DNA of 46,748 bases from Spirochaetaceae bacterium (GTDB lineage Bacteria > Spirochaetota > Spirochaetia > Treponematales > Rectinemataceae), in assembly GCA_025355995.1 (NCBI GenBank), contig JANXYQ010000070.1, forward strand, positions 1 through 46,748, given 5' to 3'. How positions within the stretch are numbered: the first letter of the stretch is position 1; each line of letters opens with the position of its first letter. A program made the position numbers and the translations under genes. Of this stretch, positions 8,123-43,407 are shown one piece after another. The notes below the pieces were generated by a model. It had not been told where the DNA came from and made no database searches. It saw nothing but the letters and a program-made list of their open reading frames with translations.

Positions 8123-9201
8123 AACTTATCCTCGACGACCGTCGCCTGGGCCTGGGCTAGCAGGCAGAGCTCGGCCGCCTTGAAGGCGTGCTCCTGCGTC
8201 ATCGCGGTCTCGGTGCGGTCGAGGCAATCCCGGATCAGCGCGCCGAAGAAGGGAAAGCCCACCTGGCCGGCCACGGCGAAATGCCGCTCTCCCTCGCCGT
8301 CGACGAGGTAGACCTGGTCGGGAGCGGGATCCCGCGCGACGTCGAGGTACTTGCGCAGCTCGATGTAGCCCTTCGCGCCAAGGATGATGGTGCGCCCGTC
8401 TCCCCAGGTTCCCAGGCCCTCGGGGGTGAACCAATCGACCCGGAAATAGCCCGTCGCCCCGTTGTCCGCCGTCAGCGCGGCGTCGCCGAAATCCTCGAGC
8501 TCGGGGTACCGCCCGTGGGCGTAGTTGGCGACCCTGGCGGAGACGACCTTGGCGTCGCTCGCCCCGGAGTAGGACAGGAACTGCTCGATCTGGTGGCTGC
8601 CGATGTCGCAGAGTATCCCGCCGTACTTGGCCTTCTCGAAGAACCAGGCCGGCCTGGTCTCGGCGGCCAGCCTGTGGGGGCCGATCCCGATGACGTGCAG
8701 CACGCGGCCTATCGCGCCCTCCTCGATCAGCTGCCCCGCGAAGACAGCGCTCTCGACGTGGAGGCGCTCGCTGTAGTACACGGCGTACTTCCTCCCCGTC
8801 TCCGCGACCCGCGCCCGGGCGAGGGCGAGCTGCTCGAGCGAGGTCATGGGCGCCTTGTCGGTGAAGTAATCCTTGCCCGCGCCCATGACCTTGAGCCCGA
8901 GGGCGCAGCGCTCCGAGGGCACGGCCGCGCCTGCCACGAGGCGCAGCTCGGGATCGCCCAGGATGACGTCCAGGTCGGGCACGACCCGCGCCTGGGGATA
9001 GGCCGCGCGGAATTTCTCGGCGCGAGCCGGATCGGGGTCGTAGACATACTTCAGCGTGCCGCCCGCCTCGACGAGGCCGTTGCACATGCCGTAGATGTGG
9101 CCGTGGTCGAGGGCCGCGGCGGCGAAGGCGAATTCGCCCGCCTCGCAGGCGGCCTTAGGCTTTCCCCTCGGCGCGTAATTCATCCCGTCCTTCCTATCCA
9201 T
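8119..9201 (-). CDS. Divergent Gfo/Idh/MocA-like protein (C)
   Basis: This 360-residue protein aligns with the Gfo/Idh/MocA family over its length: VYDPDPARAEKFRAAYP as the second Rossmann strand, AVPSERCALGLKVMGAGKDYFTDKAP, GGILCDIGSHQIEQFL in the substrate domain and DGRTIILGAKGYIELRKYLD. It is unusual because the glycine-rich GxGxxG loop is replaced by LDHGHIYGM and the EKP catalytic motif reads DKAP, keeping a lysine. Nicotinamide cofactor binding may therefore differ. The start ATG at 9199-9201 has GGAGG 7 bases upstream and overlaps the UROD-like gene by 8 bases; a downstream ATG at 9181-9183 is less well placed. It is the second gene of the long operon. The substrate is unknown, and it is quite distinct from oxidoreductases A and B. 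Confidence 0.84.
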   Translation of the reverse strand: MDRKDGMNYAPRGKPKAACEAGEFAFAAAALDHGHIYGMCNGLVEAGGTLKYVYDPDPARAEKFRAAYPQARVVPDLDVILGDPELRLVAGAAVPSERCALGLKVMGAGKDYFTDKAPMTSLEQLALARARVAETGRKYAVYYSERLHVESAVFAGQLIEEGAIGRVLHVIGIGPHRLAAETRPAWFFEKAKYGGILCDIGSHQIEQFLSYSGASDAKVVSARVANYAHGRYPELEDFGDAALTADNGATGYFRVDWFTPEGLGTWGDGRTIILGAKGYIELRKYLDVARDPAPDQVYLVDGEGERHFAVAGQVGFPFFGALIRDCLDRTETAMTQEHAFKAAELCLLAQAQATVVEDKF

Positions 9202-10321
9202 GCCGGACCTCCGCGTATCTGCATATCTCGTCGACGAGCTTCATCTGGTACCTCATGCGGCCGACGCCGGTGCCCGACGGCAGGGAGCCGGCCGTCGTGA
9301 CGACCAGGCGGCGCGAGGCCCCCGCCTTCTCGAAGTCGGAGATCGTGCGCCGCCTGATCTGCTCCGGGGAGCCGTCGCGGAGCAGGAAGGGCGGCATGTG
9401 GCCGTTGATCTCCGCCTCCGGCAGCTTCTCGCGGATGAGGCCGGGGTCCACCTCGGGGCCGTAGTTGACGCTGTTGATGCCCAGGGCGGCTTGCTCCTCC
9501 AGGAGGTGCCCCATCGAGCTGTCCGAATGCTGGTAACGCCGGGACCCGGCCGGCGCCATCGCGCCCAGCACCTCGCGGAGCACGGGAGCGCAGTACTCGC
9601 GGTAGAGCTCGACGTTCATGAGGGCGCAGTTGTCGTCCGTGATCCACCACCCCGGCTCGGAGTTCCCGCTGAAATCCCGCAGGACCTCGTTGAGCTCCAC
9701 CATCTTGCTCGCCAGGAGGTCGCGGAAGCGGCGCATGAGCTCGGGGTGGTCGAACATCCAATAGATGACGGTCTCGGGCCTCAGGACCGAGGTCATGATC
9801 GTCGCCGGCCCCCGGCTGCCCGTCCCGAGCCTAGGCAGCTCCTTGCCCGAGGCGCGGCGCTCCTCCCATTCCCGGAGGAAGGCCTCGGGGAGGCACCAGG
9901 ATCGCAGGTCCAGGCCCTCCGCCCTATCGAGTATCCGCGCGAATTCGGCCGCGTCGTCGGTGACGGGGCTGAGCCAGGGCGTGCCGCCCTCCGTATAGGC
10001 GAATTCGGACCCGAACAGGTTCTCGATGCGCTTCGGCGAGCTCTCCCAGCTGTCCTCGTCGAAGAAGGCCTTGCCCAAGTACTCCCTCGTGACGAGGTTG
10101 GCCTCTCGATGCAGCGCGTCGCGGTAGGGCTTGTCCGAGTAGTAGCGGAGAGTGGAACCCGCTTCCAGGAAGCCGAAGAGCCAATGGTCGTCGGGCGAAA
10201 ACGACATCGCGCAACGCGGCTTGCCGGCCCCCGAGCGCTCGCAGGCCGCATTCTCCTCCCAGAAGGCCTCTACGTCGAGGTCCTCCGAGAGGTCCAGGAA
10301 TTCGCGTTCCATCAGCGCCAT
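9194..10321 (-). CDS. Uroporphyrinogen decarboxylase (URO-D) fold protein, non-haem role likely
   Basis: This 375-residue protein has the URO-D/MtaA-like TIM-barrel pattern: GSRGPATIMTSVLRPETVIYWM, then DHPELMRRFRDLLASKM, ITDDNCALMNVELYREYCAP, and LLEEQAALGINSVNYGPEVD with the terminal INGHMPPFLLRDG. The ATG at 10319-10321 is preferred because AAGGAG lies 7 bases upstream; longer starts run into the control element. The cysteine ligands expected in the zinc-dependent corrinoid methyltransferases MtaA/MtbA (His-x-Cys and a late Cys) are not seen at the INGHMPP position, and no haem genes are nearby. It heads a sugar operon and overlaps a Gfo/Idh gene. URO-D-like proteins of unknown function recur in carbohydrate operons, so a decarboxylase or other sugar-linked role is possible but unproven. 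Confidence 0.8.
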   Translation of the reverse strand: MALMEREFLDLSEDLDVEAFWEENAACERSGAGKPRCAMSFSPDDHWLFGFLEAGSTLRYYSDKPYRDALHREANLVTREYLGKAFFDEDSWESSPKRIENLFGSEFAYTEGGTPWLSPVTDDAAEFARILDRAEGLDLRSWCLPEAFLREWEERRASGKELPRLGTGSRGPATIMTSVLRPETVIYWMFDHPELMRRFRDLLASKMVELNEVLRDFSGNSEPGWWITDDNCALMNVELYREYCAPVLREVLGAMAPAGSRRYQHSDSSMGHLLEEQAALGINSVNYGPEVDPGLIREKLPEAEINGHMPPFLLRDGSPEQIRRRTISDFEKAGASRRLVVTTAGSLPSGTGVGRMRYQMKLVDEICRYAEVRHG

Positions 10322-10363
10322 CCTTGTCTCCTTCACGCGTAGGATACTCAAGGCCTCTCCCTT

Positions 10364-10397
10364 CGCGCTATGTCAAATCCGCTGGTCTTGTTGTCAA
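10364..10397 (-). promoter_or_regulatory. 34-bp bipartite control element (copy 2) before the UROD-like gene
   Basis: This second copy of the element at 8089-8122 reads on the minus strand as TTGACAACAAG, 11 variable bases, then TGACATAGCGCG. Outside the spacer only one base differs from copy 1. TGACA half-sites start at the same 21-base period. It lies about 45 bases upstream of the UROD-like start, so it probably drives or regulates the whole operon. The spacer sequences differ completely, which argues that the outer blocks are conserved for protein binding. Confidence 0.58.
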
Positions 10398-10444
10398 TAG
10401 TCGTATGAAGCCCCGGGATTGCGCCAGCGGGGCCGGAGGCGCCA

Positions 10445-10473
10445 TTGATATTCCCGATATCCCGGAATACTCT
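10445..10473 (+). promoter_or_regulatory. Candidate promoter with inverted repeat for the ROK-SIS gene
   Basis: TTGATA at 10445-10450 and TACTCT at 10468-10473 are separated by 17 bases, an acceptable sigma-70 layout about 28 bases upstream of the ROK-SIS start. The spacer contains an inverted repeat, TATTCC at 10449-10454 and GGAATA at 10464-10469, symmetric about 10459. An operator in this position would block RNA polymerase. The assignment is by pattern only. Confidence 0.38.
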
Positions 10474-10500
10474 GGTCCCATCGCGACGACGGGGGCCCCA

Positions 10501-12147
10501 ATGGACGGATTGATAGGCGTGGACATCGGCGGCACCAAATGCGCGGTCGTCCTGGGCGAGGCGGGCGAGGGCCTCCGCGTCCTAGACAGGATCTACTTCC
10601 CCACCGATTCGAGCCGCGGGCCCGGGCCGGTCTTGGAGCGGATCTTCGCCGCGATCGAGGAGCTCCTCGCCCGGAACAAGGGGATCGGGCGTCCTTCCGC
10701 CGTCGGCGTGAGCTGCGGGGGACCCCTCGATTCCGCGGCGGGTCTCATCCTCTCCCCGCCCAACCTGCCGGGCTGGGACTCTTTCCCGATAGTCCGCCTC
10801 CTGGGCGAGAGGCTCTCCCTTCCCGTCTTCCTGATGAACGACGCCAACGCCTCCGCCCTCGTCGAATGGCGCCTGGGCGCGGGCCGAGGGGCCTCCGACC
10901 TCGTGTTCCTCACGATGGGCACGGGCCTGGGAGCCGGAATTATCTCCGGGGGCCGGCTGCTTCTCGGGGCCCGCGACCTCGCCGGCGAGGTCGGCCACCT
11001 GCGCCTGGCGGCGGACGGCCCCTCGGGCTACGGGAAGGCCGGCTCCTTCGAGGGCTTCTGCTCGGGCGGCGGCATCGCGCGGGCAGCGCGTGAGCGCGCG
11101 CGGGAGCTCCTGGCCGCCGGCGCCCCGGCCGCCTTCTGCCGCGCCGAGGCCGAGCTCGAGGGCATTGACGCGCGGGCCGTCGTCGAGGCCGCCCGAGGCG
11201 GCGACCGGGAGGCGGCCGGGATATTGGCCGAGGCGGGCCGCGCCCTCGGCGCCGGTCTCGCCATCCTCATGGACATCCTGAACCCCGAGCGCATCGTGAT
11301 AGGGAGCGTCTTCGCCAGGGCCGAGGGATTCCTCCGCCCTTCGATGGAGGCGGCGATCGAGGCCGAGGCCCTGCCCCTCGCCCGCGAGTCGTGCCGGGTC
11401 GTGGCGGCGCAGACGGGCGAGTCCATAGGAGACCTGGCGGCTCTCATGGTCGCGGCCCACGGCGCCGGTCTCAGCCTCGACGCAGGCTCCGGTGCGGCGC
11501 CCTCAGGCTTGCCCTCGCGGCACTTGGACGAGCTCGCCGCCCGTCGGCCCGAGCTCGCGGCCGCGCGCGGGGGCGTCGAGGCGGCCTACCGGACTATCGC
11601 GGCAGCCTACGAGCGGGGCGGAAAGCTCCTCGTCTGCGGCAACGGCGGCAGCGCGGCAGACTCGGACCACGTAGTCGGCGAGCTGATGAAGGGCTTCTTA
11701 TTAAAGCGGCCGCTTCGGCCCGCCCTCGCGGCGGCGATTCGGGGCGCGGGCGCGATCGTCGGCCTCGATCCCTCGGCCCTGCTCCAGGGCGCCCTGCCGG
11801 CCATCTCCCTGACCGGGCAGGGCCCGCTCGCGACCGCCTTCGCCAACGACGTCGCGGCGGAGACCGTCTTCGCGCAGCAGGTCCTGGGCCTCGGCTCGCC
11901 CGGGGACGTCCTCCTCGCCATCAGCACCTCCGGGAACTCCCGCAACGTCGTGAACGCCGCGATCGCCGCGATCGCCTCCGGGCTCAAGGTAGTCGCTCTC
12001 ACCGGCAAGGGCGACTGCCTCCTCGATCGCCTCGCGGAGGCGAGGATCGAGGCGCCCGGAGGCTCGACCGCCGAGATCCAGGAGGGGCAGCTGCCCCTGT
12101 ATCACGCCCTCTGCGCCATGCTCGAGGAGAGATTTTTCGGCTCCTGA
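10501..12147 (+). CDS. ROK-family sugar kinase fused to GmhA-like SIS domain
   Basis: This 548-residue protein has two enzymes in one chain. Residues 1-322 are a ROK sugar kinase: DIGGTK phosphate loop (8-13), catalytic Asp114 in NDAN, MGTGLGAGI (139-147) and EVGH (163-166). The CxCGxxGCxE zinc motif of classical ROK kinases is absent, replaced by GPSGYGKAGSFEGFCSGGG. After a linker (about 323-340), residues 341-548 form an SIS domain like sedoheptulose-7-phosphate isomerase GmhA, with CGNGGSAADSDH (379-390), STSGNS (475-480), a Glu at 394 and His535 in the C-terminal helix that match, from memory, GmhA catalytic positions. The ATG at 10501 is used because DIGGTK follows at once; upstream in-frame codons overlap the divergent promoter region. 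A bifunctional isomerase plus kinase, making and phosphorylating a ketose or heptose, is inferred. The gene is divergent from the glycan operon. Confidence 0.9.
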   Translation: MDGLIGVDIGGTKCAVVLGEAGEGLRVLDRIYFPTDSSRGPGPVLERIFAAIEELLARNKGIGRPSAVGVSCGGPLDSAAGLILSPPNLPGWDSFPIVRLLGERLSLPVFLMNDANASALVEWRLGAGRGASDLVFLTMGTGLGAGIISGGRLLLGARDLAGEVGHLRLAADGPSGYGKAGSFEGFCSGGGIARAARERARELLAAGAPAAFCRAEAELEGIDARAVVEAARGGDREAAGILAEAGRALGAGLAILMDILNPERIVIGSVFARAEGFLRPSMEAAIEAEALPLARESCRVVAAQTGESIGDLAALMVAAHGAGLSLDAGSGAAPSGLPSRHLDELAARRPELAAARGGVEAAYRTIAAAYERGGKLLVCGNGGSAADSDHVVGELMKGFLLKRPLRPALAAAIRGAGAIVGLDPSALLQGALPAISLTGQGPLATAFANDVAAETVFAQQVLGLGSPGDVLLAISTSGNSRNVVNAAIAAIASGLKVVALTGKGDCLLDRLAEARIEAPGGSTAEIQEGQLPLYHALCAMLEERFFGS

Positions 12148-12250
12148 GCCGCGCCGGCCGATTGACAAGGGCGAGGGATAGGCGAGAATCGGTAGTAAAG
12201 ATAGACGCCGGCGCGGCGCGAGCTGTTTATTGTTTGCAAGAGGATAAAAA

Positions 12251-12715
12251 ATGGCGGCGGGGAAGGTGGTCGAGCGGGACGAGGCGGGCCGTCCCCTGCG
12301 CATGTTCGGCGTACACATGGACATCACCGAGCGCAAGCGCGCCGAGGCCGCCCTGCGCCAGAGCGAGAGGAAGTGCCGGCTGCTGACCGAAAGCATCAAG
12401 GACGTGGTCTGGGTCATGGACGCCGAGTCCCTGCGCTTCCTCTATGTCAGCCCCTCGGTCGCCGGGCTGCGCGGCTATGCGCCTGAGGAGATAATCGAGG
12501 CGCCCTTCGGCCACGCACTCGGCCCCGAGTCCGTGGAGTACGCGTTCCGGGACGGTAGCGAGGGGCTGATACGCCTCGAGGCCTCGTCGCGCGGCGGCCG
12601 GCTGCGCGTGACCGTCCAGGACGACGGCGAGGGCATGCAGGCCAAGCAGCTCAACGCCAGCTTAGGAATCGAGCGCGGCGAGGGTACGAGGATAATCCTG
12701 GAATTCGCGATCTAG
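12251..12715 (+). pseudogene. Remnant of a PAS sensor histidine kinase
   Basis: This 154-codon frame begins in the tail of one PAS domain (EAGRPLRMFGVHMDITERKRAEAALRQSE is spread over residues 10-40). It enters a second PAS domain (LLTESIKDVVWVMD, FLYVSPSVAGLRGYAPEE) and then jumps directly to the end of an HATPase domain (LRVTVQDDGEGM, then GEGTRIILEFAI). The rest of the second PAS, the whole phosphoacceptor domain and the ATPase N box are missing, and part of the ATPase is lost between DDGEGM and GIERGEGT. The 5' sensory part is also absent. At least two in-frame internal deletions are needed, so it cannot be a working kinase. An AGAGGA lies before the ATG, so a short product may still be made. 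Confidence 0.82.
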
Positions 12716-12732
12716 GCGCGGCTTGTGCGCCA

Positions 12733-13318
12733 TCAGCGAACCTTGTTCACCGCGTGCCCCCTGCCGTGGCCGACTTGGCTGAAATCCTGGGCGGCGCTCG
12801 CCTGCGCTAGGGGGAATACCTCCCCGACCTCGGAGAGGACGCGCCCGCTCGCGAGCAGCCCGGCGATAGGCTCGAGCAGCGCGGCCGGACCCCTGCCGGA
12901 GCTAAGCGCCTTCACGCCCATCTCCCTCGCCTTCTCCTCCGAGACCGTCCCGCGACCGTGACGAGGACTCCGCCCTTCTAGAGCAGGCCGTAGGCCTTTT
13001 CCAAGGCCTCGTCCCCGACGAAGTCGAGAACCACGTCGGCGTTCGCGACGCTCTCTCCCAAGGGACCCTTCCGGCAATCCACGACGCTGTCGGCTCCGAG
13101 GTATTTCGCGAAGGCGGCGTTTCCCTCCGAGGCGACGGACATGAAATCCTTCGGGTAGCCCATGCGGATTTTCCAATCGATTGGATTGACTCCGGCATAG
13201 AGCACCTCCACAAGCTGACTTCGTCAGCCCCCAACGCGGGCATCGGCAGGGTCTCGAGGACGAGCTTTTCCGAGGGCCCGTACTCGTGGAACCTGACCGC
13301 GCGGAATTCTTTCTGCAT
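12733..13318 (-). pseudogene. Decayed zinc-independent quinone oxidoreductase (MDR superfamily)
   Basis: The parts of an NADP-dependent medium-chain dehydrogenase can be followed through several breaks. The N-terminus (MQKEFRAVRFHEYGPSEKLV, ATG at 13316-13318) is intact to about 13215, where a single-base frameshift leads into VLYAGVNPIDWKIRMGYPKDFM. About 110 residues covering the nucleotide-binding core are then deleted, and the reading resumes at GNAAFAKYLGADSVVDCRK and ADVVLDFVGDEALEKAYGLL. It meets a TAG at about 12979 before KGGVLVTVAG, and a further frameshift near 12955 gives VSEEKAREMGVKA and the C-terminal GRVLSEVGEVFPLAQASAA. Two frameshifts, a large deletion and a nonsense codon make function impossible. 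Confidence 0.88.
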
Positions 13319-13479
13319 ATATCTCTCCTCTCTTCGTCCGTGATCGTCCCAGGCTCGAATATAGGCAACGGGCTTCGACAAGGTAAATGCGCTGTAAGTA
13401 AAAAGAAAATAACATAAACTCCGCGCTCGCGCCGGGCGACGCTTTACCGGGCGATGGATCCTACATATATTAAAGGACG

Positions 13480-14157
13480 ATGAATGAAGTACTTTCCTTG
13501 GCGCACCTGATCTTGCGGCCCTCCCTCCCGTCCGAAGGGCCTCCGCCCCTGCTAGTGCTGTTACACGGCCTCGGCAGCGACGAGGGAGACCTCGTCGGCC
13601 TGGCGAAAAAGCTCGACGGCCGCTTCTTCTGCATAAGCGTCCGCGCGCCCTACGCCCTCGATGCCGGCGCAAACGCCTGGTTCCACGTGCGATTCACGAG
13701 CGAGGGCACCCTGATCGAGGCCGGAGAGGCGGAAGCCAGCCGCCTGAGGATCCTCCGTTTCCTGGACGAGTCGATCGAGGCCTATGGCCTGGACGCGCGG
13801 CGCGTCTTCCTCATGGGCTTCAGCCAGGGGGCCATCATGAGCCTTTGCGTGGCCCTTACGCGCCCGGAGAAGGTGGCGGGCGTCGTAGTCATGAGCGGTC
13901 GGCTCCTTCCCGAGATCCTCCCCCTGATCGCTCCCGCCGAACGGCTCAGGGGCCTGCCCTTCTTCGTCTCCCATGGGACGATGGACTCAGTCCTTCCCGT
14001 CCGGCTCGGCAGATCGATACAGGAGGCGCTGTCCGCTCTGCCCGTCGAGCTCGAGTATCGCGAATACGGGATGGGACATGAGATCGGAACTCAGAGCCTC
14101 GAGGATATATCCGGATGGCTGAGCCTGCGGCTCGGAGCCTTGGCGTCCCCTGGGTAA
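13480..14157 (+). CDS. Phospholipase/carboxylesterase-family alpha/beta hydrolase
   Basis: This 225-residue protein has the usual length of the carboxylesterase/thioesterase family PF02230 (YpfH/EstB-like). The catalytic triad is visible: nucleophile Ser in GFSQG (about residue 114), Asp in SHGTMDSVLPV and His in YGMGHEI. The oxyanion-hole segment LLHGLGSDEGD is near residue 28. The start ATG at 13480 has AAAGGA 3-8 bases upstream; an ATG four bases later would be out of frame. There is no signal peptide, so the enzyme is cytoplasmic. It probably hydrolyses short acyl or aryl esters. It stands alone between decayed genes and a small membrane protein, so the neighbourhood gives no clue to its substrate. 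Confidence 0.9.
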   Translation: MNEVLSLAHLILRPSLPSEGPPPLLVLLHGLGSDEGDLVGLAKKLDGRFFCISVRAPYALDAGANAWFHVRFTSEGTLIEAGEAEASRLRILRFLDESIEAYGLDARRVFLMGFSQGAIMSLCVALTRPEKVAGVVVMSGRLLPEILPLIAPAERLRGLPFFVSHGTMDSVLPVRLGRSIQEALSALPVELEYREYGMGHEIGTQSLEDISGWLSLRLGALASPG

Positions 14158-14300
14158 AAACTGCCAGTTGCATGGGTAAATCTTTCCCACATTCTTGCCT
14201 TAAGCTTCCGTGGCCATCGTGGATGGGCGGCGAATCGCATCATTTCGGGCTGGCATGAGGTTTGCTTGTATTATTTGTAGTCATTCTTTTGGAGGTCACT

Positions 14301-14558
14301 ATGTATCGTGCAGTGGGTCGCGGCGCCTGGGCCATGGGCTCTCACGCTTTCGGCTTTCCCTGGGGAGGCATCGCGATGGGCGTTCTCTTTCTCGCGGTAA
14401 TCGCGCTCGCGGCATTCGCGATCGTTCGGATGGGCAGGTCGGGCAAGGCCGACGCGAAGCGGCGCGGAATCGATATCCTCATCGAGCGCTACGCCCGCGG
14501 CGAGATAGACGCGGAGACTTTCCGCGCCATGAAGGCCGTGCTCGAGGCGAAGGACTAG
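14301..14558 (+). CDS. Small SHOCT-domain membrane protein
   Basis: This 85-residue protein has one predicted transmembrane helix near residues 28-50 (MGVLFLAVIALAAFAIV) followed by a basic linker and a C-terminal SHOCT motif (ILIERYARGEIDAETFRAMK). SHOCT domains are short helical oligomerisation elements found at the C-termini of many small bacterial proteins. The ATG at 14301 is chosen because GGAGG lies at 14291-14295; an in-frame TTG at 14262 has no ribosome site. The N-terminal 25 residues are rich in Gly and Ala. The role is unknown. It is followed by a convergent lipoprotein gene with about 33 bases between the stops. Confidence 0.85.
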   Translation: MYRAVGRGAWAMGSHAFGFPWGGIAMGVLFLAVIALAAFAIVRMGRSGKADAKRRGIDILIERYARGEIDAETFRAMKAVLEAKD

Positions 14559-14591
14559 GCCTTCGTCAGGGTCGAGCGTCCGTCCATAAAC

Positions 14592-15533
14592 TCATTGAAC
14601 GATCCGCAGATAATCTATCTCGGAGTAGTGCACGGATGCCGTATTGCTGCCCCCTGCTACGACGATGGCGGAATTGCCGGCGAACCCCGATAGATCGGCG
14701 GCATATGTGAAGGTTTCTTCGTTTGCGGTCTCGGTGTCTTTTTTTATTTTTATCGTGACGCCGGTCGGCGTCACGATAAAAGTTACTAAAAAGAAGCTGG
14801 AATTGTCCGCCGATTAAGCATAATTGCCATCATAGGCGCCCTCTAGCCCCGCATGCCCGACGGCTATCGTGCCGATGTAAATGCAGACGGCAATATTCCC
14901 GAAGCCGAATGCGATCAATTCATTTTTGAAGCGCGAAGTCGCGGTATAGCTGCTGGGCAAATTGACGGGATTCGTGGTTCCAGCGGCTGAAGCTCCGTTT
15001 TGGCCAAAGAGCTCCCATGCATATCTACTGAGCTCCAGCAATCCGCCCTCGACTTTTACCTCGCCTGGAATACTCGATCCTTCGCAGCCGGGATGCGGCG
15101 TCAAACTCGGCGCTGCGGTCCATATGCTTGTGTCGAATGTAGTAAATTCCTCATCGAGCAAGGCTGGCGCCGCCGGGGCTGTCACCGTGGCCTGGTAGGA
15201 CTGCGTCGTCCCATCCTCGGCGGTGACCGTGTAGGTCGCGGGAAGGCTAAAGTCTTGGCTCGCTCCCGAGGCCGGGCTGATGCTCGTCCCCGTTTGCGTA
15301 ATTATCTGCATAAGCGCGGTGACTGCGGTGCCGGACGGCACCGTGATCGCTATCGTATGCGTCGCTTCGGTGATGACTCCCGTCGCGGCCGGGCTCGTAA
15401 AGCCGAAGGCAGTGATGGCTTTTACAGTGCTCTTTGGGGCATCGGTCGTTGGAGTTGGACAACTCGAAAACATGAAGGCGACTGATACGCAAAAAAAGCC
15501 AACTGGTATTATTTTATTATTTATAATACTCAT
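14592..15533 (-). pseudogene. DUF5018-like lipoprotein gene interrupted by an in-frame TAA
   Basis: The ATG at 15531-15533 is preceded by AGGAGAG. It starts a signal peptide ending in a lipobox-like FMFSSC (Cys25), so the product would be membrane-anchored. Residues about 35-125 resemble the DUF5018 repeat (TAFGFTSPAATGVITEA, TYTVTAEDGTTQSYQATVT). A concanavalin/LamG-like beta domain begins at LLDEEFTTFDTSIW. The frame is stopped by TAA at 14814-14816 after 239 residues, in the middle of that beta domain. The same frame continues without shift for 73 further codons (SADNSSFFLVTF to HYSEIDYLRIVQ), which reads as the missing C-terminal strands. A single nonsense mutation, or a sequencing error, therefore explains the break. 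The gene is clearly richer in A+T than its surroundings. Confidence 0.75.
14748..14781. repeat. Perfect 34-bp palindrome inside the broken lipoprotein gene
   Basis: TTTTATCGTGACGCCG at 14748-14763 is the exact reverse complement of 14766-14781, with only GT between the arms. It lies within codons for the C-terminal beta strands, 33 bases downstream of the premature TAA on the minus strand. Neither strand has a U-tract directly after the stem, so it is not a standard intrinsic terminator, although a T-rich run lies on its left on the plus strand. Confidence 0.9.
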
Positions 15534-25471: not shown

Positions 25472-27006
25472 ATGGCGCGCACGAGGACGTTCGATGTCTG
25501 GACCGCGATGTATGTCGCGATCTTCGCGGCCTATGCCGTTTTCCTGCTCTATCCGATGTACTCGATCCTGCGGAATTCGGTCGTCGGCGAGAACGGGGGC
25601 TTCAGCCTCGAGTGGTTCGTCAAGTTCTTCAGCGCCAAGTACTATTCGCAGACGCTGGTCCACAGCTTCAACGTCACCATATGGACCACGGCCTTGACCC
25701 TCGTCATCGGAGTCCTCCTCTCGTATTTCTACAACATGTACGAGATCATGGGAAAGACGCTATTCCAGGTCCTGATCCTCCTCTGCTCGATGTCGGCGCC
25801 CTTCATCGGCGCCTACGCCTGGATACAGCTATTGGGACGCGCGGGGGTCGTCACTACCTTCATAAAGTCGGCGACGGGCATCACCGTACCCAATATCTAC
25901 GGGTTCAACGGCATATTGCTGGCCCTGACCCTCCAGCTCTTTCCCTTGGTATTCCTCTACGTATCTGGCGCGCTGAAAAACATCGACAACTCCCTCCTCG
26001 AGGCGTCGGACAACCTCGGCTGCTCGGGGATAAAGCGCTTCTTCAAGGTCGTCATTCCCCTGTGCATGCCCACGATACTTGCGGCCTCGCTCCTCGTATT
26101 CGTGCGCGCCTTCGCGGATTTCGGCACGCCGCTGTTCATCGGGGAGGGCTACCGGGTCTTCCCGGTCGAGATCTATACGCAGTTCCTGGGCGAGACGGGA
26201 ACGAACTTCAGCTTCGCCGCGGCCATAAGCGTCATCGCGATCGTCATCACCGCAGTGTTTTCCCTGGCCCAGAGGGTGCTGTCGAAGCGCTTCGCGTTCA
26301 CGATGAACGCCCTGCACCCGATCGAGCGCAAGCGGGCCAAGGGTCCTTTCAAGGTTTTCATACACTTCTACACGTATTTCGTAGTCGGGCTGGCCTTCCT
26401 GCCTCAGGTCTACATCGTGTACCAGTCGTTCCAGAATACTTCCGGGAAGCTGTTCAAGCGGGGGTATTCCCTGAGCAGCTACCAGACTGCCCTCAAACGG
26501 ATGAGCGACGCGATTCCGAACACCTTCGTCATAGGGGGGATCGCCCTCGTCGCGGTCGTCCTCATCGCCATCATCATCGCCTACCTCGTGGTTAGGAGGA
26601 GCACTATAATCACGTCGACGATCGACACGATGTCGATGCTCCCGTATATCATCCCCGGCTCCGTTCGGTGGCCATATTGCAGCAGATCCCGATTACCATC
26701 GAGGAAGCCTCCATCAGCCTCGGAGCCTCGAAGATGAAGACCTTCTTCGAGATCACCGTGCCGATGATGCCCAACGGCATCATCTCGGGCGCCATCATCA
26801 GCTGGGTGACGATAATCACCGAGCTCTCGACCGCGATCATCCTGTACAATTCGAGGACGATCACGCTGACCCTGGCCGTCTACACCTTCGAGACGCGAGG
26901 CAACTACGGCTACGCGGCGGCGCTGGCGACCCTCCTGACGGCCCTCACCGTCGTATCCTTGCTGATCTTCATGAAATTCTCGAAGTCGAAGGAGATCACT
27001 TTCTGA
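25472..27006 (+). pseudogene. Ferric-type ABC permease (FbpB-like) with internal deletion and frameshift
   Basis: The gene encodes a two-module permease of the FbpB/AfuB type. The first module includes MSAPFIGAYAWIQLLG and the EAA loop LLEASDNLGCSGIKRFFKV. The second module starts near 26340. The frame proceeds to MLPYIIPGS at about 26660, then shifts. The continuation VAILQQIPITIEEASISLGAS to the C-terminus (FMKFSKSKEITF) is in another frame from 26668. In intact relatives about 30-40 residues including a transmembrane helix separate IIPGS from the RSSVAILQQIP equivalent, so a deletion of about 100 bases together with a frame change is inferred. The first frame closes at 26737 with unrelated residues. 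The start ATG lies 3 bases after the ATPase stop. Confidence 0.85.
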
Positions 27007-27044: not shown

Positions 27045-27072
27045 TTGTTAAAACCCGCTTTATGATTAATAA
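27045..27072 (+). promoter_or_regulatory. Candidate promoter before hypB
   Basis: TTGTTA at 27045-27050 and TAATAA at 27067-27072 are 16 bases apart in a locally AT-rich gap between the broken permease and hypB. It would give hypB its own transcription. The match is moderate. Confidence 0.33.
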
Positions 27073-27109
27073 TGACAGAAGTGTCCGAAAAAAGGAGACC
27101 AAGGCCCCC

Positions 27110-27784
27110 ATGGATGCGTTCAAAGTCCTCGAGATCAAGAAAAGCGTCTACGAGGGCAACGACGAGCGGGCCGATTCGCTCAGGGCGGAATTGCGGAACG
27201 ACGGGATATTCCTGTTGAACCTGATGTCCTCGCCGGGCTCGGGGAAGACGACGACCATCGTGAGGACCATCGAGGCCCTGAGGGACGAGATGGCAATCGG
27301 GATAATGGAAGCCGATATCGACTCGGACGTCGATGCCCGCGCGGTCGCGAGGACGGGCGCGAGGGTGATCCAATTGCATTCCGGCGGGATGTGCCATCTC
27401 GATGCCGAGATGACGAAGCAAGGCCTGTCCGGGCTGGGAACTAGGGGACTCGACCTCGTCATCCTGGAGAACATCGGGAACTTGATCTGCACGGCGGAGT
27501 TCGACACCGGCGCCTCCGGGAACGCGATGGTCCTGAGCGTGCCGGAGGGGGACGACAAGCCCCTGAAGTATCCCCCGATGTTCTCCCTGGTCGACGTAGT
27601 CCTGGTCAACAAGATGGACGCGATCGGATTCTTCGATTTCGACCTGGAGGCTTTCTCCGCTCGCGTTATGCGATTGAATCCGAAGGCCAGGGTCATCCCG
27701 ATCTCCGCCAAGACGGGCGAGGGGATCGGCGGCTGGGCCGATTGGATCCGCGGCGAGGTCAAGGCATGGAAAGGGGCGCGATGA
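27110..27784 (+). CDS. hypB: Nickel-incorporation GTPase HypB
   Basis: This 224-residue SIMIBI-class GTPase inserts or releases nickel during maturation of Ni enzymes. Walker A SSPGSGKTT is near residue 40, the metal-site motif is GGMCHLDAEM (the Cys-His pair that binds metal in the G domain), switch regions are in ENIGNLICTAEFDTGA and the guanine-specificity motif is NKMD. The N-terminal CxxCGC high-affinity nickel motif and His-rich tract of some HypB proteins are absent. The ATG at 27110 follows AAAGGAG at about 27091-27097; an upstream in-frame ATG (27062) lacks a ribosome site. Its stop overlaps an ATG of the next gene (ATGA). With hypA two genes on, this is a nickel metallochaperone pair, but no HypC/D/E/F or hydrogenase genes lie in the window. 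Confidence 0.93.
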   Translation: MDAFKVLEIKKSVYEGNDERADSLRAELRNDGIFLLNLMSSPGSGKTTTIVRTIEALRDEMAIGIMEADIDSDVDARAVARTGARVIQLHSGGMCHLDAEMTKQGLSGLGTRGLDLVILENIGNLICTAEFDTGASGNAMVLSVPEGDDKPLKYPPMFSLVDVVLVNKMDAIGFFDFDLEAFSARVMRLNPKARVIPISAKTGEGIGGWADWIRGEVKAWKGAR

Positions 27785-27813
27785 TGGAGGATGGCGGGCA
27801 GGGGGGAGTCGGC

Positions 27814-30519
27814 ATGACCGGAAAGCCGAAGGTTCTCGCGCTGGCGAACAAGATCGCGAGCGGGGTGACGGGCGGGTTGATGCGGGTGACGGCGAAGGAT
27901 CCGGAGTACAGGATCCTAGAGCCGGTCACCACGGACGATATGGCCGAGATCGCGCTGCACCTGGAGATACGCAAGCCCAAGCGCGTCGACGAGATCGCCG
28001 CCCTCTGCAAGAGAGGCGCGGACGAGGTCGAGGCGGTCCTCGGCAAGATGGCGGTCGACGGCTCCGTGAAGTTCGAGCGCGTGAACGGCGCCAACGAGTA
28101 CTTCCTGGAGCTCTTCGTCCCGGGGGTGATGGAGTATATGGTCGCCAACAGGGCGAACGTCGCGAAATACCCCGTGATCGCCGAGTGCTTCGAGGAGTAC
28201 ACGAGGAAGCTGGGCGTGCTCATGGCGGGCAATCTCCCGGTCGGCATGGGCGTGATGCGCGTCATCCCCATCGACAGCGCCATCGAGGGCGATACCCGGA
28301 AGGCCTCCTACGAGGAGATCGCGGACCTCCTCGCCAAGCACGAGGTCTTCTCCGTCGCGGATTGCGCATGCAGGACCTCCATGCATGTCATCGGCGAGGG
28401 CTGCGGGCACCCCATCGAGGACATGTGCATCCAGCTCGGGACGGCGGCCGAGTTCTACATCCGCACCGGCAGGGGTCGGAGCGTCACCCGCGAGGAGGCG
28501 ATCGACATCTGCAAGAGGGCCGAGAGGGACGGCCTCGTGCATCAGATCCCGAACCTCTCGGGGCCTGGCAAGGCGCTCGCGATCTGCAACTGCTGCGGCT
28601 GCTCCTGCTTCGGCCTGCGCAACGCCAACTTCTACAGGAATCCCGACTTCTCGCGCTCCAACTACGTCGCGAAGGTGGACAGGGACAGGTGCGTCGCCTG
28701 CGGCGAGTGCGCCGAGAATTGCCAGGTCAACGCCCTGACCCTGGGGAAGAGCATCTGCTCGTCGAGGCCGGAGCCGATCCCGGCGGAGAAGGATACGCCC
28801 TACGATACTCCATGGGGCAAGGATCGCTGGAACCCGGAGTACCGCCACCGGAACGTCGTCGCCGAGAGCGGCACCAGCCCCTGCAAGACCGAGTGCCCGG
28901 CCCATATCGCCATCCAAGGCTACATCAAGATGGCCGGGCAGGGCAGGTACCGGGAGGCGCTCGAGCTCATCAAACGGGAGAATCCCTTCCCGGCGGTCTG
29001 CGGCCGCATCTGCCCGAGGGCCTGCGAGTCGGCCTGCACGCGATCGGGCGTGGACGAGGCCCTCGCCGTCGACGAGATCAAGAAATTCATCGCCGAGCAG
29101 GATCTCAATTCCGAGCGCCGCTTCGTTCCCGAGAGGAAGGCGCTCCGGCCGGAGCGGATCGCCGTGATAGGCGCGGGCCCGGCAGGGCTCAGCTGCGCCT
29201 ATTTCCTCGCGGTCGACGGCTACCGTGTGACGGTGTTCGAGAAGCAGAAGAGGCTCGGCGGCATGCTGACCCTCGGCATACCCTCCTTCCGACTGGGCAA
29301 GGATATAGTCCAGGCCGAGATCGACGTCCTCGGGGAATTGGGCGTGGAGTTCGAGGCGGGCGTCGAGGTCGGGAAGGATCTCTCCCTTGGGGAGCTCCGG
29401 GCGCGGGGCTACAAGGCCTTCTATGCCGCGATCGGCGCCCAGGGCGGCAGGAAAGTGCGCATCGAGGGAGAGGCCGCCCAGGGCGTCCTGACCGGCGTGG
29501 ATTTCCTGCGACGGGTGAACCTCGGCGAGGACCTGAGGCTCGAGGGCCGGGTCATCGTTATCGGCGGCGGCAACGTCGCCATCGACGTCGCCCGGACGGC
29601 GACGCGCCTCGGCGCGGCAGCCGTCGACCTGTACTGCCTGGAGAGCCGGGAGGAGATGCCCGCCCTCGGCGAGGAGATCGACGAGGCGCTATCTGAGGGC
29701 GTCTCCCTCGGCAATTCCTGGGGCCCGAGGCGGATCCTCGTCGAAGGAGGGCGCGTAGCCGGCGTGGAATTCCAGAAGTGCGTCTCGGTCTTCGACGAGG
29801 AGGGAAGGTTCAGCCCGAGCTTCGACGCCACCGTCGCGAAGACCGTCGACGCCGACTATGTCCTGACCTCGGTCGGCCAAGGCATCGAGTGGGGCGGCCT
29901 GCTGGAAGGCACCAGCCTCAAGCTGAATCCCACTGGGTCGGTCGTGGCGGATCCCCTCACCTTCCAGACGGGCGAGCTCGACGTCTTCGCCGGCGGGGAC
30001 GCGCTCACGGGTCCCAAGTTCGCCATCGACGCGATCGCCCTGGGCAAGCAGGGCGCCATCTCGATCCATCGCTACGTCCACGGGGACAACCTGGCCATCG
30101 GCCGCGAGCGGGAATACCGCGCGCTCGACAAGGATGCCTTGAGCCTGGGCGGCTACGACCGCTTGCCAAGGCAGAGGCCGCTCCGCGCCGACGGCGGCGA
30201 GTCGAGGTCGACCTTCGAGGACCCGCGAGCGACCTTCACGGAGGAGCAGATGCGGCGGGAGACCGAGCGCTGCCTCGGCTGCGGCGCCGTCGTCGTCGAC
30301 GACTACCAATGCGTCGGCTGCGGAGTGTGCACGACCAAGTGCAAGTTCGAGGCGATCACGCTGGTCCGGAAGTACGACAGCCCCGGCGTGGAGTTCAACG
30401 CGATGAAGCCCCTCGTCGTCATGCACGCGGTCAAGCGGCAGGGGAGGATCGCCGTCAAGAAGGTCAAGACCGCGATTAAGTCGCTGTTCCCCGGGGATGG
30501 AGCAGGGGCGAGCGAGTAG
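27814..30519 (+). CDS. Multi-cluster Fe-S flavoprotein with GltD-like NAD(P)H module, between hypB and hypA
   Basis: The protein has about 901 residues. Residues 1-110 look like a winged-helix-type segment. Residues 180-266 are Cys-rich (VADCACR, CGHP, DMC, CNCCGCSC). CVACGECAENC at 293-303 is a 4Fe-4S motif. Residues 357-410 are the GltD-type N-terminal Fe-S domain (CKTECP, CGRICPRACESAC). FAD binding is at VIGAGPAGLS (451-460) and NAD(P)H binding at VIVIGGGNVAID (580-591). A C-terminal ferredoxin-like part follows, with CLGCG (820-824) and CVGCGVCTTKC (833-843). The GltD/NfnB module transfers electrons between NAD(P)H, FAD and Fe-S clusters. ATG 27814 is chosen for its GGGGGGAG ribosome site; 27781 (ATGA overlap with hypB) is an alternative. 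Placement between hypB and hypA suggests a redox step in nickel-enzyme maturation or function; this is inference. Confidence 0.88.
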   Translation: MTGKPKVLALANKIASGVTGGLMRVTAKDPEYRILEPVTTDDMAEIALHLEIRKPKRVDEIAALCKRGADEVEAVLGKMAVDGSVKFERVNGANEYFLELFVPGVMEYMVANRANVAKYPVIAECFEEYTRKLGVLMAGNLPVGMGVMRVIPIDSAIEGDTRKASYEEIADLLAKHEVFSVADCACRTSMHVIGEGCGHPIEDMCIQLGTAAEFYIRTGRGRSVTREEAIDICKRAERDGLVHQIPNLSGPGKALAICNCCGCSCFGLRNANFYRNPDFSRSNYVAKVDRDRCVACGECAENCQVNALTLGKSICSSRPEPIPAEKDTPYDTPWGKDRWNPEYRHRNVVAESGTSPCKTECPAHIAIQGYIKMAGQGRYREALELIKRENPFPAVCGRICPRACESACTRSGVDEALAVDEIKKFIAEQDLNSERRFVPERKALRPERIAVIGAGPAGLSCAYFLAVDGYRVTVFEKQKRLGGMLTLGIPSFRLGKDIVQAEIDVLGELGVEFEAGVEVGKDLSLGELRARGYKAFYAAIGAQGGRKVRIEGEAAQGVLTGVDFLRRVNLGEDLRLEGRVIVIGGGNVAIDVARTATRLGAAAVDLYCLESREEMPALGEEIDEALSEGVSLGNSWGPRRILVEGGRVAGVEFQKCVSVFDEEGRFSPSFDATVAKTVDADYVLTSVGQGIEWGGLLEGTSLKLNPTGSVVADPLTFQTGELDVFAGGDALTGPKFAIDAIALGKQGAISIHRYVHGDNLAIGREREYRALDKDALSLGGYDRLPRQRPLRADGGESRSTFEDPRATFTEEQMRRETERCLGCGAVVVDDYQCVGCGVCTTKCKFEAITLVRKYDSPGVEFNAMKPLVVMHAVKRQGRIAVKKVKTAIKSLFPGDGAGASE

Positions 30520-30521
30520 AA

Positions 30522-30863
30522 GTGCACGAGCTGGGCGCCGTATTCGAGATCGTCAGGACCGTCGAGAGCTTCGCGCGGGCCAATGGGGTGACCAAGGTCG
30601 ATACCCTGGTCCTCCAGATCGGCGAGCTCTCGTCGATGATCCCGAAGTACATCGAGGACTGCTTCCCGGCCGCCGCCGACGGTACCCTGCTTCAGGGAAC
30701 GAAGCTGAGGATCGAGACGCTCCCGGGCAACGCGCTATGCACGAGCTGCAAGGCGGTGTTCAACCCGATCGAGAATTCGGGGGTCTGCCCCGGCTGCGGG
30801 GGCGAGGACTGGACCCTGCTGTCGGGCAAGGAATTCCTCATCAAGGAGATCATCGCCTGCTAG
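30522..30863 (+). CDS. hypA: Nickel metallochaperone HypA
   Basis: This 113-residue protein has the canonical HypA length and begins M-H-E, with His2 as the nickel ligand. The start is GTG at 30522, required to leave that N-terminus exact; it lies 2 bases after the flavoprotein stop. The zinc site is complete: Cys73 and Cys76 (CTSC) and Cys89 and Cys92 (CPGC). HypA delivers nickel with HypB to [NiFe]-hydrogenase and sometimes to other nickel enzymes. The segment GELSSMIPKYIEDCFPAA around residues 34-51 differs from the enterobacterial version, consistent with an anaerobe-type subfamily. The gene converges on the GH31 gene with a 13-base gap and no evident terminator. Confidence 0.93.
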   Translation: MHELGAVFEIVRTVESFARANGVTKVDTLVLQIGELSSMIPKYIEDCFPAAADGTLLQGTKLRIETLPGNALCTSCKAVFNPIENSGVCPGCGGEDWTLLSGKEFLIKEIIAC

Positions 30864-41394: not shown

Positions 41395-43407
41395 CTACAG
41401 CGCTTTCCCGATGGCGTAGCCCGAGGCGACAGCCTCCATGACGCTGCCGGGCAGCCGGCCGTCGCCGATCTCGTAGACCTCGGCGACCTTGCCCGCGAGC
41501 CGGGAGGCGAGGGCCCGGTTCGGCCCGTCGCCGACGGCGATGAGCACCGTATCGGCGGGAAGCTCCTCGCGAGCGCCGTCGGCCGACTCGACGACGACGC
41601 TGCGCCTCCTAATTTCCACGCAGCGCCGCGAGGTCAGGGCCGCGACCCTCAATCTCTCGATGTGGCCGAGCAGGATCGTCCTGCTCGTCGCCACCATGCC
41701 GACGGCAAGCGAATCGAGCATCTCGACTATGGTCACGCGCTTGCCCTTCCCGGCGAGGAACTGCGCGGCCTCGCAGCCGACCGCGCCCCCGCCGACGATG
41801 ACGACCCTCCTGCCGACGCGGGCTCCCTCCAGGGCGACCTTCGCGTTCAAGACGATCGGCGCGTCGAAGCCTGGGATGGGCAGGCGCGCGGGCGATGCGC
41901 CGGTGGCGCAGACGACCGCGTCGGCCCGGGCCGCGAGCGCCATCTCCGCGGTCAATTCCGAGCCGAGGACGACCTTCACGCCCGCGCGCCGCGCCTGTCT
42001 TCCCAGATAGCCGATGAGCGGCGCGAGATTGCCCTTGTCGGGAGGGACGATCGCGACGCGCAGCAGCCCGCCCAGGGCCTCCTCCCTCTCGTAGAGCGTG
42101 ACCTCGTGCCCACGCAGGGCGGCGATCCGTGCCGCCTCCACTCCGGCGGGCCCTCCTCCGGCGACGAGCACCGTCTTCTTTCGTCCGGCCGGAGGGAGGG
42201 CGTAGTCGTTGTCCCCCTTGCCCAGCACGGCGTTGCCCGAGCAGGCGATGCGCTCGTCGCGCTGCAGCTGGCCGTCCGTACATTTCCCGCAGCCGATGCA
42301 GGGACGCGCGTCCTCGTAGGTCCCGTCGGCGATCATGCGCGGAAGGTCCGGTTGCGCGAGCAGGGCGCGTCCCATGAAGATGAACTCCGCCCTGCCGCGC
42401 GCGAGGGCCCTCTCCGCGAGGGCGGGGTCGAAGGTCCTTCCGCCCGCGATGAGGGGGAGGGTGAGCGCCTTCTCCCCGAGGAAGAAGCCGGGCCGCTTGC
42501 CCCCGCGGGCGATGCGGGCCAGCTTCATCAGGCGCACGATGGGAAAGGTGAGACCCTTCGCCTGGCCGCTGTCGGGCACGTCGCGCCTGCCCGGGTTCGT
42601 GCTCCAGGCGCCAGCCAGGACCTCGATGGCGTCGACGCCCGCTTCCTGCAGGAGCCGGCAGGCGAGGAGCCCGTCCTTCAGGGATATCCCGCCGAACTCG
42701 CCGATCTCCAGCACGCTGAGCTTGTACAGCAGGGGGAAGGAGGGCCCGGTTTTCCCGCGGATCTTCCGGGCTATGTTGAGGGCGAAGCGCGCGCGGTTGG
42801 CCGCGTCGCCGCCGTATTCGTCGGTGCGGACGTTCGCCGTCTTGGAGAGGAACTGCTCGACGAGGTAGTAACCCGTCGCGTGCACCTCCACCCCGTCGAA
42901 GCCCGCTCTCTGCGCCCGCAGGGCCGCCTCCGCGTACTTGTCCTCGATGGCGCGGATCTCGGCCCGCGAAAGGGCTCGCGGCTCCTCCCCCTCGAAGCCG
43001 ACGATGAAGTCGTAGGGCTTCTTGACGGCGGAAGGGCCGACCGGCTGCTCGCCGACGTTCTTCCTCTTGGCTCCCCGGCCCGTGTGGCTGATCTCGAGGA
43101 CGCACTTGGCGCCGTGAGAGTGGATGGCGTCGACGAGCCTCCGGAAGCCGGGAATGTATTTGTCGTCGTCGATCGCGAGCATGCGCGAGGTGTTAAGCCC
43201 CAGCGGGGCGTCGACGCAGGTGACCTCGACGACGATGAGTCCGACCCCGCCCTTGGCGCGCTCGGCGTAGTGATTCACGATCGCGTCGTTGACGAAGCCG
43301 CCCTCCGCCATGTTCACTCCCATGGCGGGCATGACGATCCTGTTGCGGAGCCTCATGCCGGCGATCGACCCGGGGGACAGGAGATGGGGGAACGCGGCGG
43401 CTTTCAC
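41395..43407 (-). CDS. OYE-family NADH:flavin oxidoreductase with Fe-S and FAD/NAD(P) domains
   Basis: This 670-residue protein has the domain order of 2,4-dienoyl-CoA reductase FadH, BaiCD/BaiH and trimethylamine dehydrogenase. An FMN-binding TIM barrel (about 1-360; HATGYYLVEQFLS, RTDEYGGD) is followed by a 4Fe-4S site (Cys370, 373, 376, 389) and an FAD domain from VLVAGGGPAGVEAARI (about 414). A nested NAD(P) domain begins VVIVGGGAVGCEAAQFL. The Cys spacing is C-x2-C-x2-C-x12-C instead of the usual C-x2-C-x3-C-x11-C. The start is GTG at 43405-43407 with AAGGAG 7 bases upstream. It reduces activated C=C bonds, for example in enoates, steroids or phenylpropenoids. It lies between glycosidase and two-component genes, hinting at reduction of an aglycone. 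Confidence 0.9.
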   Translation of the reverse strand: MKAAAFPHLLSPGSIAGMRLRNRIVMPAMGVNMAEGGFVNDAIVNHYAERAKGGVGLIVVEVTCVDAPLGLNTSRMLAIDDDKYIPGFRRLVDAIHSHGAKCVLEISHTGRGAKRKNVGEQPVGPSAVKKPYDFIVGFEGEEPRALSRAEIRAIEDKYAEAALRAQRAGFDGVEVHATGYYLVEQFLSKTANVRTDEYGGDAANRARFALNIARKIRGKTGPSFPLLYKLSVLEIGEFGGISLKDGLLACRLLQEAGVDAIEVLAGAWSTNPGRRDVPDSGQAKGLTFPIVRLMKLARIARGGKRPGFFLGEKALTLPLIAGGRTFDPALAERALARGRAEFIFMGRALLAQPDLPRMIADGTYEDARPCIGCGKCTDGQLQRDERIACSGNAVLGKGDNDYALPPAGRKKTVLVAGGGPAGVEAARIAALRGHEVTLYEREEALGGLLRVAIVPPDKGNLAPLIGYLGRQARRAGVKVVLGSELTAEMALAARADAVVCATGASPARLPIPGFDAPIVLNAKVALEGARVGRRVVIVGGGAVGCEAAQFLAGKGKRVTIVEMLDSLAVGMVATSRTILLGHIERLRVAALTSRRCVEIRRRSVVVESADGAREELPADTVLIAVGDGPNRALASRLAGKVAEVYEIGDGRLPGSVMEAVASGYAIGKAL

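Follow-up and report, generated by a model that had tools for sequence, protein, structure and literature searches.

A conserved hypB-isrA-hypA cassette in a Spirochaetaceae bacterium and a candidate nickel-binding module in its flavoprotein

Introduction

The metallochaperones HypA and HypB are usually taken as a sign of a hydrogenase, and nickel enzymes form a short list. Here we analyse a locus in which hypB and hypA flank the gene of a multi-cluster iron-sulfur (Fe-S) flavoprotein, at positions 27110-30863 of a 46,748-nt DNA stretch (the window) from a Spirochaetaceae bacterium (GCA_025355995.1, contig JANXYQ010000070.1). The closest described system is that of IsrA, the putative isoprene reductase of Acetobacterium wieringae and a member of the 'clade 9' family (PMC10134865, 2023). 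IsrA is 901 residues long and contains four canonical [4Fe-4S] clusters; a fifth site consists of six cysteines and carries two CxC motifs (180/182 and 254/256). Its operon, isr, comprises five genes: isrA, two hypA genes, hypB and a gene for a ferredoxin-like protein. Isoprene raised four of the five operon proteins by 6 to 11 log2 units, with induction reported for IsrA and for its Hyp proteins. The strong response of IsrA was seen by proteomics and reverse transcription PCR, and it was the most strongly induced protein (10.7 log2 units). Of 988 IsrA homologues, 73% had HypA and 56% had HypB nearby. The A. wieringae strain was noted to lack hypCDEF and [NiFe]-hydrogenase, and IsrA was proposed as the nickel target; HypA/B showed no link to the stand-alone ferredoxin-like protein (PMC10134865). 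The sole later report on IsrA that we found is a 2025 genome announcement with a 'putative diene reductase cluster' (PMC12509576).

The family and its HypA/HypB linkage were thus already described in 2023 and the window cassette is not new, contrary to a preliminary description of this DNA, which was aware of no experimental account of the trio. What is new here, as judged from sequence comparison, is a cassette-specific HypB group that spans four loci with a stand-alone form of the flavoprotein N-terminal module, extending beyond the 2023 paper.

Results

The three genes are tightly packed on the plus strand in the order hypB-isrA-hypA:

27110..27784, plus strand: hypB, SIMIBI GTPase and nickel metallochaperone of 224 amino acids, cassette-type clade
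27814..30519, plus strand: IsrA-like multi-cluster flavoprotein of 901 amino acids, assigned from Pfam domains, homologous loci and the tree
30522..30863, plus strand: hypA, nickel/zinc metallochaperone of 113 amino acids with a GTG start, MHE and two CxxC motifs

The flavoprotein ATG (27814) lies 29 bases 3' of the hypB stop and the hypA GTG (30522) 2 bases past the flavoprotein stop. Another in-frame ATG is present upstream of hypB at 27062, but translation probably begins at the ATG at 27110, because homologues likewise open with M[DE]xYKxLEIK. The hypB product scored 221.2 bits against the TIGR00073 equivalog model (cut-off 121.2) and has an intact P-loop (SSPGSGKT), CH site (GGMCHL) and C site (NLICTAEF), with no N-terminal high-affinity Cys motif. 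HypA has the MHE start and both CxxC motifs and matched PF01155 with 102.6 bits (cut-off 28.9), whereas its score for the NCBIfam hypA equivalog (TIGR00100) was 79.0 bits, under the cut-off of 88.1. The main open reading frames of the window gave no hydrogenase, urease or carbon monoxide dehydrogenase (CODH) domain. On all these points, namely position and packing of the trio, intact chaperones and no sign of the three nickel enzymes in those reading frames, the preliminary description was borne out, but an Ech-type hydrogenase operon is present on another contig of the genome.

By its sequence features the window flavoprotein is a member of the IsrA 'clade 9' family, with IsrA itself matched through its published description. 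It is about 900 residues long, aligns with its homologues over the full length and contains Fer4, dihydropyrimidine dehydrogenase (DPD) domain II, a flavin adenine dinucleotide (FAD)/NAD(P) module and a C-terminal Fer4, and its CxC pairs stand at a constant offset of +4 from the IsrA numbering. With IsrA and its operon it shares the length of 901 residues, the domain order, the CxC pairs, the adjoining hypA and hypB and the lack of a hydrogenase set at the locus. Unlike the five-gene isr operon, the window locus has three genes, with one hypA and no ferredoxin-like gene. The DPD domain II Fe-S region and the FAD/NAD(P) module are shared with NfnB, GltD and DPD, which lack the winged-helix, seven-Cys N-terminal module of the window protein, and none of the NCBIfam equivalog cut-offs shown for this group was reached. 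To our knowledge, no HypAB linkage of the NfnB, GltD or DPD modules is known. The following regions were assigned in the flavoprotein:

27886..28143, plus strand: winged-helix fold of the N-terminal module, residues about 25-110 (AlphaFold2 model and profile match)
28261..28653, plus strand: seven-Cys domain, residues about 150-280, candidate nickel/Fe-S site equal to site V of the IsrA paper
28672..28740, plus strand: [4Fe-4S] ferredoxin motif C293, C296, C299, C303 (PF00037)
28873..29109, plus strand: Fe-S region of the DPD domain II type (PF14691, E 3.6e-20)
29155..30039, plus strand: FAD/NAD(P)H module of the GltD/NfnB type (PF07992, E 5.8e-22; relatives in the PDB include Nfn and GltD)
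30271..30342, plus strand: C-terminal Cys-rich ferredoxin-like region with C820, C823, C833, C836, C839 and C843 (Cys list)

The N-terminal part matches no Pfam family. Its AlphaFold2 model had a predicted local distance difference test score (pLDDT) of 87.3 and a predicted template modelling score of 0.87; the full-length model was poor (mean pLDDT 59.7, 14 sequences) and was therefore set aside. VIA-align with the N-terminal model gave matches to its winged helix only, from winged-helix regulators (best Z 7.5, root-mean-square deviation 6.6 over 97 residues), a profile comparison matched 2d1h with an E of 1.4e-4, and Foldseek gave nothing at E <= 0.001. The seven cysteines are C184, C186, C197, C205, C258, C260 and C265, with C184/C186 and C258/C260 as the CxC pairs. 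They are invariant or nearly so across 88 IsrA-type and 51 stand-alone homologues, and the six C-terminal cysteines are invariant in the homologue alignment.

The preliminary description had called for a survey of gene order. We retrieved 80 named homologous loci from Bacillota, Spirochaetota, Chloroflexota and Pseudomonadota (46-76% identity to the window protein), 71 of which had enough flanking sequence on both sides to be scored. The immediate order hypB-isrA-hypA was found in 53 of these 71, with hypA directly downstream of isrA in 66. The MHE-type start of HypA with its His2 is retained in all 88 proteins compared, and the metal sites of HypB in 72 (CH) and 75 (C) of 76. In the tree the window protein falls into one group with the proteins of Clostridium zeae, Ruminiclostridium cellobioparum, C. 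tagluense and a metagenome-assembled genome of A. woodii (100% by the Shimodaira-Hasegawa-like approximate likelihood-ratio test; 70-76% identity), apart from other Spirochaetota copies, which suggests horizontal transfer. Near the genes of these four relatives DUF5692 (4/4), TetR (3/4) and oleate hydratase (2/4) are encoded, and from the match to the published neighbourhood we infer that they are the A. woodii-type 'cluster II' homologues. The window locus shares their tree group and gene order, and unlike them has no DUF5692, TetR or oleate hydratase gene. Among the loci examined, 43 have DUF5692 close to isrA, in two cases between isrA and hypA (L053 and L064). At two loci (L037 in G260 and L048 in G144) the IsrA-type gene is disrupted by in-frame stops or frameshifts, next to a hypA that looks intact, and two others (L023 in G195 and L024 in G189) have two clearly different isrA-type genes in tandem, with hypB ahead and hypA after.

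The cassette is frequent in genomes without the usual hydrogenase partners. Of 296 Spirochaetota genomes, 89 have HypA above the cut-off, 65 have HypD and 20 have the flavoprotein. HypD is absent from 16 of these 20 carriers and a PF00374 match from 15; outside the Spirochaetota sample, 34 of 49 named carriers lack HypD. In HypD-negative Spirochaetota, HypA accompanied the flavoprotein in 15 of 16 genomes, as against 13 of 215 without it (p 4e-15, uncorrected for kinship). The cassette pair is therefore independent of the presence of a hydrogenase. The genome of the window (4.5 Mb, 138 contigs, 95% complete) holds two HypA genes, the second in a hypA-hypB pair that closes the Ech-type hydrogenase operon (contig C36, locus L015 of G000, 8451-14665), the complex of which keeps intact nickel-ligand motifs. 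With no hydrogenase in the window and no HypD detected in the genome (0/1), the locus does not have the make-up of a [NiFe]-hydrogenase maturation cassette. Its HypA and HypB share the intact nickel-site motifs of their [NiFe]-hydrogenase counterparts and differ from them in the separate HypB group and in the lack of a hypCDEF or hydrogenase partner at the locus. We noted seven Ech-type (group 4) hydrogenase-like operons ending in hypA-hypB (L015, L160, L163, L164, L165, L166 and L167) in genomes without detectable HypD; their large subunits retain the RICGIC and DPCISC motifs. Either HypD escaped detection, or maturation of the complex bypasses the usual Fe(CN)2CO route.

The winged-helix, seven-Cys, ferredoxin module also occurs as a stand-alone protein with one or two ferredoxin motifs, in up to seven scored copies per genome. 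This is a large Spirochaetota family, the N-terminal part of which has no Pfam family; one example is encoded at 1150-2427 of locus L010 (contig C52 of G000), and another copy, in locus L009 (contig C112 of G000), is broken near 1863 by an in-frame TAG directly after the CxCR motif. HypA was found within 5 kb in 21 of the 24 best listed flavoprotein-type matches. Among the other module matches listed, it was found at this distance in 4 of 126, all four within 1.1 kb, for which about 0.14 were expected. At these loci (L161, L172, L204 and L205), all from a single phylum, hypA and hypB directly adjoin the stand-alone module, and the flavin module is absent. In the HypB tree, 40 of 40 cassette HypBs form one group (support 87/89), and together with the four HypBs of the stand-alone modules they make up one side of a 99/93 branch, with the Ech- and hydrogenase-type HypBs on the opposite side. 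Since the group is also found at modules without the flavin half, cassette-type HypB appears to follow the N-terminal module, which suggests that this module is the nickel client of the flavoprotein.

Three further features of the window were recorded. A promoter-like match lies upstream of hypB (27045..27073, plus strand); it is weak, being one of 2 found with 0.6 expected by chance. Just 5' of hypB, an ABC transporter permease gene (25472-27006) is divided over two frames (25472-26737 and 26668-27006), between which some sequence seems to be missing, pointing to a broken gene or an assembly error. At 41398-43407, a flavoprotein of the old-yellow-enzyme type (Oxidored_FMN and Pyr_redox_2) is encoded, another possible ene-reductase.

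Discussion

We consider it probable that the locus encodes an anaerobic reductase of the IsrA family together with its own nickel-loading HypAB, the nickel most likely residing in the N-terminal module. Domain make-up, conserved gene order, the lack of HypD in most carriers and the cassette-specific HypB group support this reading at the level of sequence. In the proposed scheme the FAD/Fe-S half would take electrons from NAD(P)H or ferredoxin and pass them along a series of [4Fe-4S] clusters into the N-terminal module; there a nickel-containing Fe-S site on the seven conserved cysteines, loaded by the GTPase HypB together with HypA, would reduce an organic substrate, most likely at a C=C bond. 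Nickel binding and its location, the direction in which electrons flow and the reaction chemistry are all proposed here by inference. From the neighbours of the close relatives we would guess at a conjugated or isolated C=C compound as the substrate, perhaps a fatty-acid-derived one. The preliminary description had offered three roles for the flavoprotein. That it is itself nickel-dependent is the best supported, by the dedicated HypAB, the conserved order, the usual lack of HypD and the frequent lack of a hydrogenase; supply of electrons for maturing a nickel enzyme and control of nickel delivery found no positive support.

Several observations weigh against a nickel-containing reductase. The seven cysteines are just as invariant in 47 stand-alone homologues that have no HypA close by, no alignment column separates HypAB-linked from unlinked modules, and in some genomes the module is present and HypA was not seen. 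As the Cys set is kept without HypA, it may hold only Fe-S, with nickel elsewhere or in another protein. Some carriers have no adjoining hypB, and in one (G240) no HypA match is convincing. Branches in the HypB tree are long, and it includes few hydrogenase-type rows. The search of the window genome for other nickel enzymes took in urease alpha and not CODH, lactate racemase and others. We met no metal analysis of an IsrA-type protein in the literature examined. Isoprene was not reduced by those published Acetobacterium strains whose homologues all lie outside cluster I, the kind to which the window protein seems closer.

The Cys-only nature of the site, its maintenance in homologues without HypA and the score of the window HypA below the NCBIfam cut-off would also agree with HypA and HypB inserting a metal other than nickel, such as zinc, iron or cobalt, or assembling an Fe-S site in the N-terminal module. 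We regard this as unlikely, given the conservation of His2 in HypA and of both metal sites in HypB.

It is rather improbable that the pair serves another nickel enzyme (the Ech-type hydrogenase, CODH or other), with the flavoprotein merely sharing the operon or giving electrons. In Helicobacter, HypAB serve urease and hydrogenase alike, and the genome of the window has an Ech-type complex with intact nickel-ligand motifs. However, the Ech operon has its own hypA-hypB with a HypB of a different group, and we therefore rejected the idea that the cassette pair belongs to this hydrogenase; urease as a client in this genome was rejected because urease alpha is absent. Moreover, the pair stays by isrA even though 15 of 20 Spirochaetota carriers have no PF00374 match, and the linkage holds in 21 of the 24 best listed isrA-type genes. 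Neither of the two refuting circumstances named in the preliminary description was encountered: the trio is conserved elsewhere, and no full hydrogenase and hypCDEF set to explain the chaperones was found in this genome, where HypD was the one of the four searched.

An Nfn-like bifurcating or confurcating NAD(P)H:ferredoxin oxidoreductase, made a redox-dependent regulator rather than a small-molecule reductase by its winged helix, would fit the GltD/NfnB-type middle part and the winged-helix resemblance of residues 25-110, but has very little chance of being correct, as it leaves HypAB, which track the N-terminal module, without a role and does not fit the induction of IsrA with isoprene, the strongest observed (10.7 log2 units, PMC10134865).

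Returning to the nickel-dependent reductase, we dropped the Cys set alone as a nickel marker, since linked and unlinked modules are indistinguishable by it. Unlinked copies may in many cases share the cofactor; otherwise the seven cysteines would hold Fe-S only, with nickel bound elsewhere or not bound. Tentatively, and with the odds somewhat against it, the winged-helix, seven-Cys module may represent a new type of nickel-iron-sulfur catalytic site that a dedicated HypAB branch loads, joined to an NAD(P)H flavin module in IsrA proteins and, in some spirochaetes, present on its own beside HypAB; the cofactor of the many unlinked paralogues may be identical or related.

The cassette is common in anaerobes, often in those without a hydrogenase, so annotation based on HypAB misleads. 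The flavoprotein is a possible further nickel enzyme, one that may hydrogenate C=C bonds, and the four loci with HypAB and a stand-alone module offer a smaller protein for the question of nickel binding.

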